Shown piece after piece: positions 5,859-31,565 of a stretch of 38,369 nucleotides of DNA. Every line of letters starts with the position of its first letter. The stretch's first letter is position 1. Source of the DNA: Bacillota bacterium (GTDB lineage: Bacteria; Bacillota; Clostridia; Peptostreptococcales; Anaerovoracaceae). The translations under genes and the position numbers were made by a program. The stretch lies in NCBI GenBank assembly GCA_022793975.1, contig JAAWDW010000162.1:1-38369 (forward strand), in the 5' to 3' direction. The notes below the pieces were generated by a model, which had not been told where the DNA came from, made no database searches, and saw only the letters and a list, made by a program, of their open reading frames with translations.

Positions 5859-5888
5859 TTGACTTGCGTCGGTCGACGAGGGTATAAT
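5859..5888 (+). promoter_or_regulatory. Strong sigma-A-like promoter of S-layer gene A
   Basis: TTGACT (5859-5864) - 18 nt - TATAAT (5883-5888). Confidence 0.75.
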
Positions 5889-5896
5889 CTAAACTG

Positions 5897-6009
5897 ATAG
5901 TATGCGTGGAAGTCTCACCTTCTATACTTACTATTCATAATGTCAAATTATCTTCGGAAGGGGAAGGTAGTTTGCAGGAACAAGTAGGCCCCTTCCAAAG
6001 AAAAATTTA
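5897..6009 (+). promoter_or_regulatory. Structured 5' leader of gene A: a unique 5'-terminal stem-loop plus a stem-loop shared with gene B
   Basis: Stem-loop 1: ATAGTA(5897-5902)/TACTAT(5929-5934) with inner TGGAAG/CTTCTA. Stem-loop 2: GGAAGGGG(5956-5963)/CCCCTTCC(5989-5996), also present in gene B leader. Confidence 0.6.
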
Positions 6010-6023
6010 GGAGGATACTCAAA

Positions 6024-8405
6024 ATGAAAAAAGTACTTTCATTTGTACTGGTATTAACACTGGTACTCGGTAGCTTCTCAATGGTATTCGCTGCACCTGC
6101 TCAGAAGAATCTTTCTGATATAGCAGGCGATGCTAATGAGCAGGCTATCCAGGTAGTAAACGACCTCGGAATTGTTGAAGGTTATACTGACGGAACATTC
6201 AAGTCAGGAAACAACGTAACAAGAGCTGAGTTCGCTGCTATGATTACAAGAGCTCTCGCTATTCCTGAAAGTGCACTTGCTGGTTATACTTCAACTAGCT
6301 TTAAGGATGCAGCAGGATACGGCTGGGCTGTAAAATATCTCGGATTCTGTGAATCAAGAGGTATCATGATCGGAGACGGAAACGGTAATGCAATGCCAGG
6401 AAGAACAGTTACTGTAAATGAAGCAATGACTATGGTACTCAGAGCTGTTGGATACACTAACAATTCATCAGTACTCGTAGGTTCATGGCCTGCAAACTAC
6501 GTTTCACTCGGACAGACACTTGGACTTTATGATGATGTTGCAACAGCAGTAACAATCAACAGAGGTTCGGCTGCACAGGTTATCTACAATGCACTTCCTG
6601 TAGCACTCGTACAGGTTGCTACTGACGGAACTACATCAAAGATCGTTGCAGAAAGAGATGAAGATGACAATCCGATTTACAGAACACTCCTCACTGCAGG
6701 ACTTAACTGCACTCAGGAAAAGGGAGTTATCGACTTCAACGACAATTCTGTAATCGCTCTTGCTGAGTATGTTGGCGCATATGCAAACATATATCGCAAT
6801 TCGGATGATGAAATCGTTGCGGTAGATCCTATCTCAACATTCCTCACTGGTTCGCTTGACGAAGGTGAATTTACAGCTGATGATGTAGACTATAAGTTTG
6901 CAACAGGCAAGGATGCTGTAGATCTTGAAGAGGCAGTTGCAAAGTATACAAATGCTGATTCAGACGGAACTACAACATTAGGCGCTATTACAGACAGCGA
7001 TATCACAATTGCAGTAGATCTTTCCGGAAAGACAATTAAGGAAATCTATTCAGTAGCTGTTTGGACTACAGATAATAAGGCTCTTGCTGATGACGATGTT
7101 CAGGACGAAATCAATGACGACCAGAAGCTCCTCGGTAAGGAATTTGATTTAGATGACGATGATGATATCGACGCTACTTCATACTCACTCCTCGGAGTTA
7201 ACTCGCTCAGTGACATTAAAGAAGACAACGTATTATACGTATATACTCTTGGAAACAAGGACAATGGCAAGATCGTAAAGATTGAAGTTGGTACTGCTAC
7301 TGTTGAAGGTAAGGTAACAAGAAGAGCTGCTGACAAGGATGGTGTTGACGGTTATGTTTACACAATTGACGGCAAGAAGCTTTACCTTGCTAACGAAGAT
7401 GTTGCAGCTCCTGTAGTAGGTGACGAAGGCAAGGCACTTCTCGACTACAATGGCGACATCTATGATTGGGATGTAAATGACAGCAAGTCTGAAAACTACG
7501 CTGTAGTAACAGGCGCAATGAAGGATTATGGCAGAGATAATATGCTCATGCTCCTTGACAAGGAAGGCAATGAAAAGGACTATGTTCTCAAGGATGATGA
7601 TGTAGAAAAGGTTGCTAGCAATGCTGCTGTAGGTGATATCGTTACATTCTCGCTTGATAAGAACGGAAAGATTGATGACCTTGAAATAGCTACAACAAAA
7701 GATGATGTAACAGGTAAGGTTTCTAAGGACGGATCACTTATCGGAAGAACTGTAATTAAGAAGAGCGTTGTTGTATTCGTTCAGGATGATGACGATTATT
7801 CGGTAGGCAAGATTGCAGATATTGATACAGATAAGAGCTTCCAGGCTGGAGACTTAACTGTAGTATACGACGGAAGTGAAGTTGCTGTTATCTTAGTACA
7901 GGACGGCGATACAGGCAACAGTGATGACCAGTATGGTATCATCAAGGTAAATGATATCGCAGGCGAAGATGCTGACGGTGATGATGCTACTCTCTTCGAT
8001 GTAATCGTTGACGGTAAGCTTATGGAAGATGTTGTTACTGAGCTTAACAGCAAGGATGCAGCTGTAACAGGTATGACTGACCAGCTCGTTAAGATCTTTA
8101 TCAACGCTGACGGTGTAATCACTAAGGTAGAAGAACACGGACTTAAAGCAGAAGATAACGAATATGTTGCTGCAAACGATAATATCGTAACAAAGATCAG
8201 CGGAAGAGTTATCACAGTTGCTGCTGATAAGGATGCTGACGGCGAAGCATTCAGAATCGCTGATGACGCAGTTATCTACGTATGGAATACTGATGATGAA
8301 GAATGGCAGGTTAAGACTTCGCTCTCATCACTCAGAAACCTCCACGTATCACTCTATGATACAGATGATGACACAACTGGATTCGATGTTGTAATGGCAT
8401 ACTAA
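6024..8405 (+). CDS. Large acidic SLH-domain protein, probable major S-layer protein (gene A, 793 aa)
   Basis: Signal peptide MKKVLSFVLVLTLVLGSFSMVFAAP, N-terminal SLH motifs (EGYTDGTFKSGNNVTRAEFAAMITRAL), very Asp-rich C-terminal region, strong promoter, long structured leader, RBS AGGAGG, codon usage biased relative to neighbours. Confidence 0.9.
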   Translation: MKKVLSFVLVLTLVLGSFSMVFAAPAQKNLSDIAGDANEQAIQVVNDLGIVEGYTDGTFKSGNNVTRAEFAAMITRALAIPESALAGYTSTSFKDAAGYGWAVKYLGFCESRGIMIGDGNGNAMPGRTVTVNEAMTMVLRAVGYTNNSSVLVGSWPANYVSLGQTLGLYDDVATAVTINRGSAAQVIYNALPVALVQVATDGTTSKIVAERDEDDNPIYRTLLTAGLNCTQEKGVIDFNDNSVIALAEYVGAYANIYRNSDDEIVAVDPISTFLTGSLDEGEFTADDVDYKFATGKDAVDLEEAVAKYTNADSDGTTTLGAITDSDITIAVDLSGKTIKEIYSVAVWTTDNKALADDDVQDEINDDQKLLGKEFDLDDDDDIDATSYSLLGVNSLSDIKEDNVLYVYTLGNKDNGKIVKIEVGTATVEGKVTRRAADKDGVDGYVYTIDGKKLYLANEDVAAPVVGDEGKALLDYNGDIYDWDVNDSKSENYAVVTGAMKDYGRDNMLMLLDKEGNEKDYVLKDDDVEKVASNAAVGDIVTFSLDKNGKIDDLEIATTKDDVTGKVSKDGSLIGRTVIKKSVVVFVQDDDDYSVGKIADIDTDKSFQAGDLTVVYDGSEVAVILVQDGDTGNSDDQYGIIKVNDIAGEDADGDDATLFDVIVDGKLMEDVVTELNSKDAAVTGMTDQLVKIFINADGVITKVEEHGLKAEDNEYVAANDNIVTKISGRVITVAADKDADGEAFRIADDAVIYVWNTDDEEWQVKTSLSSLRNLHVSLYDTDDDTTGFDVVMAY

Positions 8406-8440
8406 TCTGAGACTTGTAAATCATAATATAACAAACAAAA

Positions 8441-8468
8441 GAAGGCGGATTTCCGCCTTCTTTTTATT
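8441..8468. terminator. Intrinsic, probably bidirectional terminator between convergent genes A and B
   Basis: GAAGGCGG-ATTT-CCGCCTTC followed by TTTTTATTT on +, and A-rich upstream giving T-rich tail on -. Confidence 0.8.
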
Positions 8469-8492
8469 TGTCTATACTATTTATAGTACTGA

Positions 8493-10866
8493 TTACTCCC
8501 AAATGAGTATAACGTCAAATCCTTCTACGTCTTCATCAGTCTGGTATGCCTTTATATGGTTATCTTTTTTGATTGCGCTGATAGAAGTTTTTGCAGACCA
8601 TACTTTATCTTTATCGCTCCATACGTAGATAATCACATTATCAGCTAACTGATAAGTTTCACTATTAACGACAAACTGATTGTCACCGTCCTTAGATTCT
8701 ACTGTTGCACCCTTGAAATCCTCAACTTTAATATCTTTGCTGAGTTCATAAGTAACACCAGTTACAATACCATCTGCATTTACTGTGATTTCTGCAATAC
8801 CACTTGCAGTAGTAGTTTCTTTCCAAGTGCTGTACAGATCATTGGCCTTTGCCTTAAGTTCTTTACCCTCGATATATCCTTCAACATACGATACCTTATC
8901 TTTATCTTCGTTAACACTAGTATCTACTGCGTTGACAACTCCGTAAGTAGCTTCACCACTGTCTAACTGATTATCCTTATTAATGAAAATAGCAGCAATC
9001 TTTTTGTCCTTTGTAACTATACTTTCTGCTTCTAATTTTACATCTTTCTGGAAGTTTGTGAGCTTTTCAATTGAATAATCATTATTCTTATCCTTGAAGA
9101 ACACTACAATATTCGAAGCAACCGATTTAGTTCCGATTAGAGTTCCGCTCTTTGATATTCTGCCAAGCTCGGAAGCATCTTCTTCAACAACTATAAATTT
9201 GTTAATTTTACCGCTCTTGTTAAGTGAGTATTCAATAATTGTGTCTGCATCAATTGCAGTACCGCTGATTTCTAATTTAGTGCCATTATCTGATGCATTG
9301 ATATCTTTGTGCGCTTCAGCAATAATTTCTTCTCCTGCAGAAGTAAAGAGCTTAATGCTAATCTTTACGGTATCATCACTGTATCCTGGATCTTTTTTAT
9401 ATCCGAGATATAAAGCATAATTTCCTGCAGCCGCATTGTCTTCATCCCATATAGCGAGTTCGCCTGCGTAGTTAAGATAAGCTGTACCTTCGTCACCCAC
9501 ACCTGGTGCCTTTTTCTGGAAGTTTGCTGTAACGTTATAAGTTTTGCTATCAATTGTAAATTTATCGTTGTCCTTATTAATTCTTGTTACTTGTCCTGTA
9601 ATTGAATCAGTACCAACCGCAATTTTAGTAATTTCGTCATTCTTGTTCAGATAAAGTTCAATAACATTATCTTCCTTGATGTCATTAAGTGATGCAACGC
9701 CGAGGAGTATAAATGAAGTTTCATCAATTTTGTCGTCATCGTCAAGAATGAACTTTTCTCCACAGAGTCTTCATCAAGATCATCTTTTTGGAACTGTACA
9801 GCATCCTCTGCTGTCCATGTAGCGATTGAATAAAGAGTCTTTATAGTTTTACCTGAAAGTTCTACAGCGACTGTAACTGTAGCATTATCATAATTTGCTA
9901 TTGCCCCGCCTGAAACATTGTCTATATCGCCGTTGGCAAATGTTTCGCCGTCATCCGTTACTTCCATGCCTTCTTTGAATTTATACTCCGTGCCATCTAC
10001 ATCAATAATTTTTTTTCAGCGTCTACATCACCTGTAAGGAATGTTGACTTAACTTCTCCAATTGCAACGATTTCATCGTCCTTAGAGTAAGTTACAGCAT
10101 ATGTTCCCTGATAAGGCATGAGGTTGATTGCCGAAGGTTCTTCACCTGTAATTACATAAGCAGCACCTTTCTTGTCTATATCACATCCAAGACCTGAAGT
10201 AAGAAGTGTTCTGTAGATAGTTTCATTACCAAACTTTTCTGCAACAACTTTGTCAGTTTTCCCGTCAGTTGCTACCTGTACGAGTGCTACTGTAAGCACA
10301 TTGTAAACTACCTGTGCGGCACTCTCTCTGTTGATCGTAGTTGCTGCTGCAACATCATCATAAAGTCCGAGTGTCTGTCCGAGTGAAACGTAGTTTGCAG
10401 GCCATGAACCTACAAGTAACGCCGAATTGTTAGTGTATCCAATAGCTCTGAGTACCATAGTCATTGCTTCGTTTACAGTAACTGTTCTTCCTGGCATTGC
10501 ATTACCGTTTCCGTCTCCGATCATGATGCCCTTTGACTGGCAAAATGCGAGGTAAGGAACTGCCCAGCCATATCCCGCTGTATCTTTGAAAGTACTTGTT
10601 GAATATCCGGCAAGTGCACTTTCAGGAATAGCGAGGGCTCTTGTGATCATAGCTGCGAACTCGGCTCTTGTTACATTATTAGCACCCTTGAAAGTGCCGT
10701 CATCGTAACCTGTGATGATTCCGAGATCGTTTACTACCTGGATAGCTTCCTCATTTACGCTTCCTGCAATGTCAGAAAGACCTTTCTGCTCAGGTGCAGC
10801 GAAAACCATTGAGAAGCTACCGAGTACCAGTGTTAATACTAGTACAAATGAAAGTACTTTTTTCAT
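8493..10866 (-). pseudogene. Frameshifted paralog of gene A (gene B; SLH/S-layer protein, candidate silent copy)
   Basis: ORF fragments 9997-10866, 9647-9967 and 8493-9500 form one homologous product when one nt is added at each of two A tracts (T8 10009-10016 and T4 9754-9757 on + strand). The restored product would be ~791 aa versus 793 aa for A. Matches include VELSGKTIKTLYSIATWT vs VDLSGKTIKEIYSVAVWT and LLGVASLNDIKEDNV vs LLGVNSLSDIKEDNV. Confidence 0.85.
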
Positions 10867-10953
10867 TTCGAGTATCCTCCTAAATTTTTCTTTGGAAGGG
10901 GCCTATTTGTTCTTGCAAACTACCTTCCCCTTCCGAAGATAATTTGACATTAT
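10867..10953 (-). promoter_or_regulatory. Gene B leader, near-identical inverted copy of gene A leader 5937-6023
   Basis: Reverse complement reads ATAATGTCAAATTATCTTCGGAAGGGGAAGGTAGTTTGCAaGAACAAaTAGGCCCCTTCCAAAGAAAAATTTAGGAGGATACTCgAAATG; only about three substitutions from A. Confidence 0.85.
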
Positions 10954-10990
10954 TTTATAGTGGCAGGAGAACAAATAAAAATTGTAATTT

Positions 10991-11111
10991 CTAATAATGT
11001 AGTTCGGCATGGCAGGGCATCTGTGTACATTAAGTAAACTGTAAAGCAGGTACTTAGTAAGTGAAATTTATATGGATGTAATGCTATGTTGAGTGTGTTA
11101 TTAAAAAGTAT
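10991..11111. repeat. Interspersed TIR-like/imperfect palindromic repeat, copy R1
   Basis: TACATTAAGTAAACTGTAAAGCAG...ATTTATATGGATGTAATGCTATGTTGAGTGTGTTATTAAAAA; homologous to R2 and R3. Confidence 0.6.
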
Positions 11112-11236
11112 ACATTTTGAACATTGCGAATTTAAAATTAAATACACAAAGAAAGGAGGATATAATTACAAGATACAAAACATCATTATATTAAATAAAT
11201 AATGCAGAACAAATCGAAGAAAGGAATAAGAGAAAA

Positions 11237-12349
11237 ATGATGAAAAAAGAGTCTAATGAGAGAAATACGCAAAATTATGAAAAGGAACTGACAGGGTTGT
11301 GCAATTTATATTTGGAATATTGTTATTATGAAAAGCAACTGTCCGAAAACAGTATAAGGTCATACAAGTACGACCTCATAGGGCTTGTACGGTATGCAAA
11401 AAGTTACGTAATGTACGGTAAAAACGCGTTTAATAAGAACGAAAAACCCGGATGTGAAATAAAAATTACGGAAAATGAAAAGTTTGCCGTGCCGAATAGG
11501 CAAAATACAAAAAATCTACAGTATGTGTCTATACAAAAACTTGACAAAGAGTTTTGGTATAAATATATGACGGAGCTTTCTGCTGTAAAAAAAGTTAGAA
11601 CAGTAAAAAGAAAACTAGCCTGCTTTACGGGTTTCTTTTATTTTCTGGAAAATAAGGGAATAATACAGGAGAATCCACTCTGTAAATTCAAACTTAAACT
11701 AAAAGCTGCGGGCAGTGTGCCTGAAACTTTGAGTTTAAAAGAAATAAAACGAATATTTGACATAGCATACCGACTGTCTGCAGATGATGTGACAGGGTTG
11801 ACAATGGAAACCGCTGAAGTTTTGAGATGTCGCGATATTGCGGTACTGGAGCTTTTATTTTCCACAGGACTACGCGTCAGTGAGCTTTGTGCCATTAGTT
11901 TTGCCGCATATGACAGTGGTGATCAAAGCCTGCGCGTACTCGGAAAAGGCGGCAAAGAAAGAACACTTTATCTCGGAAACAGCGGCGTGATAGATGCACT
12001 CGAAAAATATATCGAGTTGAGATTGCGCATAGGTCCGGCAGATTCCGCAAGCGATGCTATATTTCTTAACAGATGGGGGAAACCGCTTTCGTGTCAAGCT
12101 GTACGCGATCTTGTCAAAAAATATTGTAAAGCAGCGGGAATAAGCCGCAATATAACTCCGCATGCGTTTCGTCATACATTTGCTTCACTTCTTCTTGAAG
12201 AAGGGGTGGAACTGCGGTACATACAGGAATTCCTTGGGCACAGCTCCATAACAACAACGCAGATCTATTTACATACGAGTGAAAAAAGAAAGCGCGAGAT
12301 ACTTACAAAAATGCATCCGCGTAAAAAATTAGGCAATATAATTAAATAG
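11237..12349 (+). CDS. Tyrosine recombinase/integrase (XerC/D-like, 370 aa)
   Basis: Catalytic signature: R in STGLRVSELC, K in GKGGKERTL, HAFRHTFAS, LGHSSITTTQIYLH; extended N-terminal region. Confidence 0.92.
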   Translation: MMKKESNERNTQNYEKELTGLCNLYLEYCYYEKQLSENSIRSYKYDLIGLVRYAKSYVMYGKNAFNKNEKPGCEIKITENEKFAVPNRQNTKNLQYVSIQKLDKEFWYKYMTELSAVKKVRTVKRKLACFTGFFYFLENKGIIQENPLCKFKLKLKAAGSVPETLSLKEIKRIFDIAYRLSADDVTGLTMETAEVLRCRDIAVLELLFSTGLRVSELCAISFAAYDSGDQSLRVLGKGGKERTLYLGNSGVIDALEKYIELRLRIGPADSASDAIFLNRWGKPLSCQAVRDLVKKYCKAAGISRNITPHAFRHTFASLLLEEGVELRYIQEFLGHSSITTTQIYLHTSEKRKREILTKMHPRKKLGNIIK

Positions 12350-16414: not shown

Positions 16415-16555
16415 AATAAATTCCTCCGGGATAAAATATTTTTAAAAATATACAACTTGATTAAAATCATAGATATAAAGCTAACGCAAACAATATATAC
16501 ACATTGCATACAGATACACAGATGAGATATCGTTTTTTCTATGCAGAAAAATATA

Positions 16556-16668
16556 TTTTTTAATAACACACTCAGCATAGCATCACATACGTATACATTG
16601 AGCAAACTGTGAACCAGTCCGCAAGTTAGTGGGATTTATGCAGATGTTATGCTGTAATTCTAAAAAAT
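16556..16668. repeat. Interspersed TIR-like/imperfect palindromic repeat, copy R2
   Basis: TTTTTAATAACACACTCAGCATAGCATCACATACGTATACATTGAGCAAACTGTGAACCAG...GGGATTTATGCAGATGTTATGCTGTAATTCTAAAAAA. Confidence 0.6.
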
Positions 16669-17499: not shown

Positions 17500-17600
17500 A
17501 TTAGATGTACAAATGCGGGCGCGCTTACTAAGGTTCTGGTTTACATTTCGTTCAAGATATACGGATGTTATTTTATATTCTGAGTGTATTATTAAAAAGC
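17500..17600. repeat. Interspersed repeat, copy R3 (partial/diverged)
   Basis: TTACTAAGGTTCTGGTTTACATTTCG matches reverse complement of R1 centre; GGATGTTATTTTATATTCTGAGTGTATTATTAAAAAG matches R1 right end. Confidence 0.45.
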
Positions 17601-17639
17601 AGGCATTAATGTGTTAGCATTTGTTATATTAGTTTTGTG

Positions 17640-30314: not shown

Positions 30315-30407
30315 CAACAAAGAGCTTAAGGCAAAACTTTATCAATGGTCGAGAGTAGAATTTTAAGAAGCGTAAAAAATAAATTGCAAAAGAAAAGGGG
30401 TAAAAGT

Positions 30408-31565
30408 ATGAAACAGAGAATAAAAAAATCAGTAATAGCTGCTGTTATAGCGGCGGCTGTAATTACTGGGGGAATGCCGCTAAGCGGCGGCGTGCCGGAA
30501 GCGGCAGCATTACCTGCGCGCTTTACTGATGTTGCGGCAAGCCATTGGGCAAATGGTGATATTGACTTTGCGGCGCAAAAAGGCATTGTGAACGGATATG
30601 AAGCAGCAGGCGGTACATATGTATTTTATCCGGAGAATCAAGTCAGCTATGAAGAGGCAGCGACTATGCTTTACAGAGCGCTCGCGGCAGCGGGCAGATT
30701 GAGGACAGGCGGTACTTCAGATGAGGATAAAACGCAAGCAGTAGGCGGTGAGCTTACGGAGGAACAAAAAAATGCTTTGATTGAAAAGCACAGTGAGGAA
30801 CTTATTACAGCGAACATAGCCGAATGGGCAAAAGCGTACGTTGCTTACGGGCTTGAATACAATATAATAGAGCCGGATGAACTTTCGCATTTTGTAAATG
30901 CAAATACAAAACTCGGTAATCCCGCACCGCGTCTTAAAGTAGCAGTATGGACGGCAAAAGCCCTTGATAAGCAGGTTTCGGGCGTGTATTATCTGCCGTT
31001 TACAGACGCATCGCAAATAGACGATGCATCAGCAAAATACGTGGATATGCTTTATAGACATGGTATAATGAAAGGCTCTTGGCAGCCTGACGGTACAGTG
31101 GCATTTCAGCCCGCATCCGGTGTTAAACGAAGTGAGTTTGCTGCTATCAGCAACAGAGTTTTTAACAATGCGGGAACCGCATACGATATTTCAAAAGAAA
31201 TGTACAATTACAAAATCGAGCCGGGAGCAAAGATAGAAAGTGATAAACTGAGAATCGCAAGCGAATCTACAGTTATAGGAAGTGAAACCGGATGCGGAGC
31301 GGTGTCCGGGATAAGTGCAAAGATAGGTGATGTGCCGCAAGTATTTCTTGTAGGCTCACCGGAAGTGCTTACAGGTACTATAAAGTCTACAGAAAATATA
31401 AACGAAGATATTATAAAAATCGGCGTGCAGATCTCAGAAAAAGGAATGGGAAGAGAGATACTGTACTATATATTAGATAAGGATACAGAAAGTACGGCGA
31501 AAATAACAAACGGAACAAAAGTAACATTCATAGCCGATGGTGTAAGGCTCATAGAAATAAAATAA
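30408..31565 (+). CDS. SLH-domain secreted protein (~385 aa)
   Basis: RBS AAAAGGGG before ATG 30408, signal peptide, RFTDVAASHWANGDIDFAAQKGIVNGYEAAGGTYVFYPENQVSYEEAATMLYRAL and DGTVAFQPASGVKRSEFAAI. Confidence 0.85.
   Translation: MKQRIKKSVIAAVIAAAVITGGMPLSGGVPEAAALPARFTDVAASHWANGDIDFAAQKGIVNGYEAAGGTYVFYPENQVSYEEAATMLYRALAAAGRLRTGGTSDEDKTQAVGGELTEEQKNALIEKHSEELITANIAEWAKAYVAYGLEYNIIEPDELSHFVNANTKLGNPAPRLKVAVWTAKALDKQVSGVYYLPFTDASQIDDASAKYVDMLYRHGIMKGSWQPDGTVAFQPASGVKRSEFAAISNRVFNNAGTAYDISKEMYNYKIEPGAKIESDKLRIASESTVIGSETGCGAVSGISAKIGDVPQVFLVGSPEVLTGTIKSTENINEDIIKIGVQISEKGMGREILYYILDKDTESTAKITNGTKVTFIADGVRLIEIK

Follow-up and report, generated by a model that had tools for sequence, protein, structure and literature searches.

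A candidate site-specific S-layer gene switch with a dedicated Xer-like recombinase in the Anaerovoracaceae

Can two convergent genes for SLH surface proteins, one preceded by a strong promoter and the other adjoining a tyrosine recombinase gene, be exchanged behind that promoter by inversion of the DNA between them? The question is raised by a locus on contig JAAWDW010000162.1 (assembly GCA_022793975.1) of a Bacillota bacterium from the family Anaerovoracaceae, for which a first-pass annotation had proposed such an invertible pair. The window, that is, the whole analyzed stretch of 38,369 nucleotides (nt), represents contig 52 in an assembly of 1.2 Mb and 59% completeness. We compared it with a set of 299 genomes of the family, most of them draft assemblies, with one genome per species and thus across species only. 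The comparison makes it likely that S-layer genes are switched site-specifically at this locus by a dedicated Xer-like recombinase. The features of the locus are as follows.

5859..5888, plus strand: the single promoter, TTGACT-18-TATAAT (11/12 match), outside the putatively exchanged block
5937..5952, plus strand: proposed recombination core on the expression side, ATAATGTCAAATTATC (ATAA-N7-TTATC), at the left homology edge
5937..6023, plus strand: shared leader (5' untranslated region, UTR) on the A side, which includes a conserved hairpin and the ribosome-binding site AGGAGGA
6024..8405, plus strand: gene A, an intact SLH surface-protein gene behind the promoter, a single open reading frame (ORF) of 793 residues
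8437..8464, no strand assigned: terminator-like hairpin between the convergent genes, with a 12-pair stem and T runs on both strands
8493..10866, minus strand: gene B, a promoterless SLH cassette with two frameshifts, near 10009-10016 and near 9754-9773
10867..10953, minus strand: shared leader on the B side, 87 nt, with exactly three substitutions relative to the A leader
10938..10953, minus strand: proposed recombination core on the putatively silent side, at the left homology edge
11237..12349, plus strand: gene of an XerC/XerD-like tyrosine recombinase of 370 residues, its ORF starting 284 nt beyond the B boundary

The protein encoded by gene A combines a signal-peptide-like N-terminus with an SLH match (E 1.9e-14), the only match found in Pfam. 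With this N-terminus, the SLH match, the strong promoter, and the leader, it is a putative S-layer protein and may be the main subunit. The annotation of A and B as a pair of genes holds for A, but B is not one gene in this assembly: two single-base length changes, one in a T8 run on the plus strand (10009-10016) and the other at about 9754-9773, split it into ORFs of 289, 106, and 335 residues, and a full-length protein would not be expected from it. An assembly error at two A runs may underlie the frameshifts; poor base quality in general is not obvious, since the other large ORFs of the window show no visible breaks.

Genes A and B share an inverted repeat of 718 nt (5937-6654 and 10236-10953, 85% complementary), the first 170 nt of which are 96% identical; no third copy of it was found in the assembly. 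In the alignment, the two sides are unrelated up to 5936 and 10954, respectively, and the shared block begins at an abrupt edge, at 5937 and 10953. The leader is followed by a near-identical signal peptide and by 70-93% identity through the SLH region, beyond which nucleotide identity is about 50% and the C-terminal parts share about 37% of their amino acids. The first reading of this region, with a leader of about 87 nt carrying about three substitutions, homology stopping at the same point on both sides, patchily near-identical 5' coding parts, and divergent C-termini, is thus borne out by alignment. A chance origin of the repeat is excluded, because of its length and complementarity and because the block and the anatomy recur in other species.

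The strong promoter had been reported on the A side only. TTGACT-18-TATAAT is indeed the best promoter-like match in the region, and a scan of the region revealed nothing comparable preceding gene B. The same promoter, followed by TGATAG, is found at a single site in each of G002, G003, G011, G074, G278, G107, G169, and G221, and the 90 nt preceding each of the examined silent sites contain no TATAAT.

Where would recombination take place? Block copies start with ATAATGTCAAATTATC or a close variant, of the form ATAA-N7-TTATC, and this is the left edge of all within-genome homology. Such a core resembles the center of an Xer dif site, which in E. coli is ATAA-N6-TTAT. Recombinases from a neighboring branch adjoin GGATAA-N7-TTATC, the spacer being 7 in 7/7 matches when lengths of 2-13 were allowed, and ATAAT-N5-[AG]TTATC lies within 400 bp of 10/30 recombinase genes, compared with 0.15 expected from shuffles. 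The arms of the leader hairpin, CAAATTATCTTC and GAGGATAATTTG, were considered as an alternative core; ATAA-N7-TTATC is preferred because it forms the left homology edge, recurs beside related recombinases with other leaders, and is kept in G145, where the bases after the core differ. The crossover, assigned by the first-pass annotation to 5937-~6090 and ~10800-10953, would still fall within the shared 5' block, and is best placed at the block start, at 5937-5952 and 10938-10953. In four genomes (loci L139, L144, L137, and L140 of G074, G093, G278, and G145, respectively), the 3' end of a recombinase gene contains the core, which encodes the C-terminal DNVKLS; recombination there could change the tail of the enzyme itself.

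The leader is predicted to fold into a hairpin, and genomes lacking the recombinase have a similar leader as well. This is probably an element of the mRNA leader, accounting for part of the block conservation. In a covariation test of core-bearing sequences the hairpin showed many G-U changes and no two-sided change; a pairing change was noticed by eye in recombinase-free genomes, outside the covariation scoring.

The recombinase, first placed about 280 bp past the B boundary and in fact 284 nt from it, belongs to the tyrosine recombinases (PF00589, Phage_integrase, E 1.5e-40) and has the complete catalytic set R213, K237, H309, R312, H335, and Y344, invariant in 30 homologs. Its best match in the PDB is XerD. 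Its scores of 222.8 and 219.8 bits fall below the equivalog cut-offs for XerC (335.15) and XerD (329.6), respectively, in keeping with the earlier reading, which needed it not to be a clear ortholog of either housekeeping protein. The congeners G002 and G003 have a separate XerD-like gene, 232-residue parts of which score 284 and 276 bits for XerD, and which stands on a branch apart from the window recombinase in a phylogenetic tree; few housekeeping Xers were recovered for this tree and its branches are long, so exact placement is unsure and the tree shows only that the XerD-like genes are separate. Judged by this separate gene and by co-occurrence and adjacency with the site across genera, the recombinase is not the housekeeping Xer. 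Among the 80 matches listed by a recombinase-alignment search of the contigs of the named genomes, there was no core and no A-like N-terminus.

With the recombinase called at E<=1e-40 and the site by sequence pattern, 30 of the 299 genomes have the site, 31 the recombinase, and 16 both (Fisher p 1.6e-10); by genus, 13 are shared of 18 and 20, respectively (p 1.7e-7), and the recombinase is present in 12/14 multi-site and 4/16 single-site genomes (p 0.001), all these tests ignoring shared ancestry, which inflates the p values. The distance between recombinase and site is within about 600 bp in nine of the co-occurring genomes, and the recombinase adjoins the block or site in G003, G005, G074, G075, G079, G093, G169, and G278. 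G074, from another genus, repeats the anatomy of the window, with two recombinase genes followed by a site, two convergent genes, and a promoter at the far end. In G278, two recombinases are flanked by two divergently oriented sites, only one of which has a promoter.

Other passenger genes were observed at three further loci. The promoterless cassette of G278 (L242, 6811-9093) shares only the site, the leader, and the signal peptide with its partner; beyond the signal peptide, the encoded protein is unrelated and has Cu_amine_oxidN1 domains, which suggests that surface proteins of two kinds alternate. Since homology ends there, long homology would not be needed. In G221 (L239, 8466-13049), a related recombinase stands beside a convergent pair, each gene of which is preceded by AAGGATAATAGGTAATTATC; one encodes a 354-residue protein with an ATP-grasp-type match and the other an 808-residue protein without a Pfam match. 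In G191 (L240, 6861-9638), the pair beside a related recombinase has AAAGGATAATATAAGATTAT at both 5' ends and encodes a 335-residue protein with a weak GNAT match and a 238-residue methyltransferase-like protein. In both genomes this is the putative switch anatomy of the window with other passengers and with GGATAA-N7-TTAT-type sites.

Have the cassettes been exchanged? In G002, the block follows the CLC gene and the promoter on contig 4, where its first 126 nt are present before the contig stops, and it is found without a promoter upstream of two SLH genes on contigs 8 (C8) and 35 (C35); these overlap by 127 nt and join into the promoterless convergent pair GNAT-[cassette]-><-[cassette]-MBL. 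In G003, four contigs end inside the block, their flanks being CLC with the promoter, the recombinase, GNAT, and MBL. Three of these flank types are seen in G002, in both genomes with the promoter at the CLC site only; the fourth G002 site is not visible, because the recombinase contig stops within the recombinase gene. Contigs that end at a block are expected of identical repeats in short-read assemblies. The MBL and GNAT flanks are orthologous between the two genomes (60% and 54-57% at the amino acid level). The arrangement in the genus therefore seems to be four sites in two convergent pairs, only one site having a promoter.

Over its first 117 nt, the block shows 100% identity within a genome (three copies in G002 and three in G003) and 92-97% between genomes, and the flanks are unrelated within a genome, with the CLC flank 79-90% conserved across species. 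G002 has the ortholog of gene A at its MBL site, which lacks a promoter; identity past residue 220 is 65%, and no other gene exceeds about 42%. The genome of the window has the MBL locus without a cassette. From this pattern of block and flank identity, together with the position of the A ortholog and the cassette-free MBL locus, we infer that cassettes have changed places relative to their flanks since the species separated. Such evidence speaks for exchange on an evolutionary time scale and not for switching within a culture. The promoterless cassettes are intact, at 760-1036 residues, in G002, G074, G093, G075, G278, and G011, which is unexpected of permanently silent genes.

In the proposed mechanism, a cassette would consist of the core site, the 5' UTR, and an SLH surface-protein gene, the cassettes being arranged in convergent pairs and the promoter standing immediately outside the core and only at the site that follows the CLC-transporter gene. 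The neighboring Xer-like recombinase would exchange strands between two oppositely oriented cores, and the DNA between them would be inverted, bringing the other cassette behind the fixed promoter and leaving the mRNA leader unchanged. The sequence has what such a switch calls for, namely one promoter outside the inverted repeats, promoterless other genes, and the same core in opposite orientation at each gene. The recombinase would be predicted to act at the core and inversion to occur in living cells, with the promoterless cassette silent and expression from one cassette only. Recombinase-driven exchange behind a fixed promoter is supported by the anatomy, the homology edge, the single promoter, the exchanged cassettes, the concerted evolution of the block, co-occurrence, and adjacency. 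The earlier view of A and B as an expressed/silent pair with one promoter is strongly supported by comparison, but since B is frameshifted, inversion here would place a truncated gene behind the promoter. We incline somewhat towards a wider system, in which four conserved chromosomal sites, only one of them an expression site, trade several SLH cassettes through a single dedicated recombinase of the Xer type. Each arriving cassette would receive the same leader because the core overlaps the start of the leader hairpin, and other convergent pairs would be driven by this recombinase family as well.

By analogy, this mechanism is close to Vpma/Xer1 and slpA/slpB. In the Vpma system of Mycoplasma agalactiae, a linked Xer-type recombinase, Xer1, swaps surface proteins by inversion at sites just upstream of each gene, with one active promoter (PMC2268961). 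The locus described here resembles this system in its linked Xer-type recombinase (284 nt from the block), its single promoter, and its site upstream of each gene. Vpma, whose named kin are Vsp of M. bovis and Vsa/HvsR of M. pulmonis, differs in that lipoproteins of wall-less bacteria are encoded in one array there and SLH proteins at up to four sites here, and in that inversion was shown experimentally there and is read from sequence here. In Lactobacillus acidophilus, active and silent S-layer genes slpA and slpB are swapped by inversion of the slp segment, according to PMC7858073 (citing Boot et al. 1996), which also mentions S-layer switching in Campylobacter. The likeness would be an active and a silent gene of the S-layer type that change places by inversion, whereas the S-layer family is unrelated, our proteins falling outside the Lactobacillus type, and L. 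acidophilus has one pair only. In the sap system of Campylobacter fetus, a single promoter goes with a number of silent S-layer genes whose 5' ends are conserved, much as proposed here, but the system belongs to a Gram-negative host and a different protein family, has long conserved 5' regions, and is largely RecA-dependent. Inversion also controls surface proteins in other anaerobes, as in CwpV and the flagellar switches of Clostridioides difficile (RecV) and the S-layer promoter of Bacteroides thetaiotaomicron BT1927 (PMC2784873, PMC7446863, PMC12548429). In these cases a short on/off element lies beside one gene or operon, whereas here whole cassettes would swap behind a fixed promoter. No description of a multi-site SLH switch with this core was found in the open-access literature searched, most subscription papers lying outside that search.

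Could the same pattern arise otherwise? The genes might be exchanged by homologous recombination of the RecA type, or by gene conversion, across the 718-nt 5' repeats, the recombinase being incidental. The long repeat and the patches of identity in the coding 5' ends would suit this explanation, and concerted block evolution could be gene conversion; nevertheless, the homology of every copy begins at the same base, at the ATAA-N7-TTATC core, which the recombinase adjoins across genera, and the G278 partners have only core, leader, and signal peptide in common. We consider such an origin improbable, though the two processes could act together. Alternatively, the locus may be a frozen inverted duplication in a strain without switching, with A expressed and B a dead pseudogene. 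The two frameshifts, the single configuration seen in the species (one genome), and the SLH paralogs of G001 without the recombinase would agree with it, while the intact promoterless cassettes of six other genomes, the A ortholog at a silent site in G002, and an intact recombinase ORF with all catalytic residues here would not. This is possible for the present strain and unlikely overall, as it does not fit the system as a whole. It is hardly credible that the recombinase is a chance neighbor, be it the integrase of a mobile element or the housekeeping Xer for dimer resolution: its Xer-like organization, XerD as the best PDB match, and the dif-like core are set against scores under both equivalog cut-offs, the separate XerD-like gene of the congeners G002 and G003, and the association with the S-layer core, by co-occurrence and by adjacency, across many genera.

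Several observations weigh against a recombinase-driven switch itself. Exchange is deduced across species, from one genome each, and the association tests carry the ancestry bias given above; 14 genomes have the site without the recombinase (E<=1e-40) and 15 the recombinase without the site. The core overlaps the leader hairpin, which is also found without the recombinase, so part of the core conservation is not due to recombination. With gene B frameshifted twice, the local switch may be one-sided, decaying, or damaged, and in G003 the recombinase (L083, G003:C139, 281-1247) is divided into two overlapping frames of 224 and 110 residues, by decay or assembly error. Finally, G001, a congener without the recombinase or the core, has three SLH paralogs (L035, 7900-18853) that alternate in orientation, which shows that duplicates of this kind need no such switch; their upstream homology begins only shortly before the start codon.

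Elsewhere in the window, further SLH-domain genes without the recombination core lie at 678-2789 and 30345-31565; the one for a 480-residue protein keeps its place beside AEC and CLC genes in the congeners G002 and G003. An intergenic repeat of ~48-50 nt (78-88% identity) is present upstream of the recombinase (11065-11112) and at 16552-16599 and 17558-17607.

If the switch operates as proposed, dedicated site-specific coat switching would be widespread in one family, 13 genera having both recombinase and site, and an exact recombination site would be available for testing. Because contigs break at the block repeats, draft genomes hide such switches. The convergent pairs with non-surface passengers would point to a wider family of switches. 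Phage entry and contact with the host can both depend on the S-layer.

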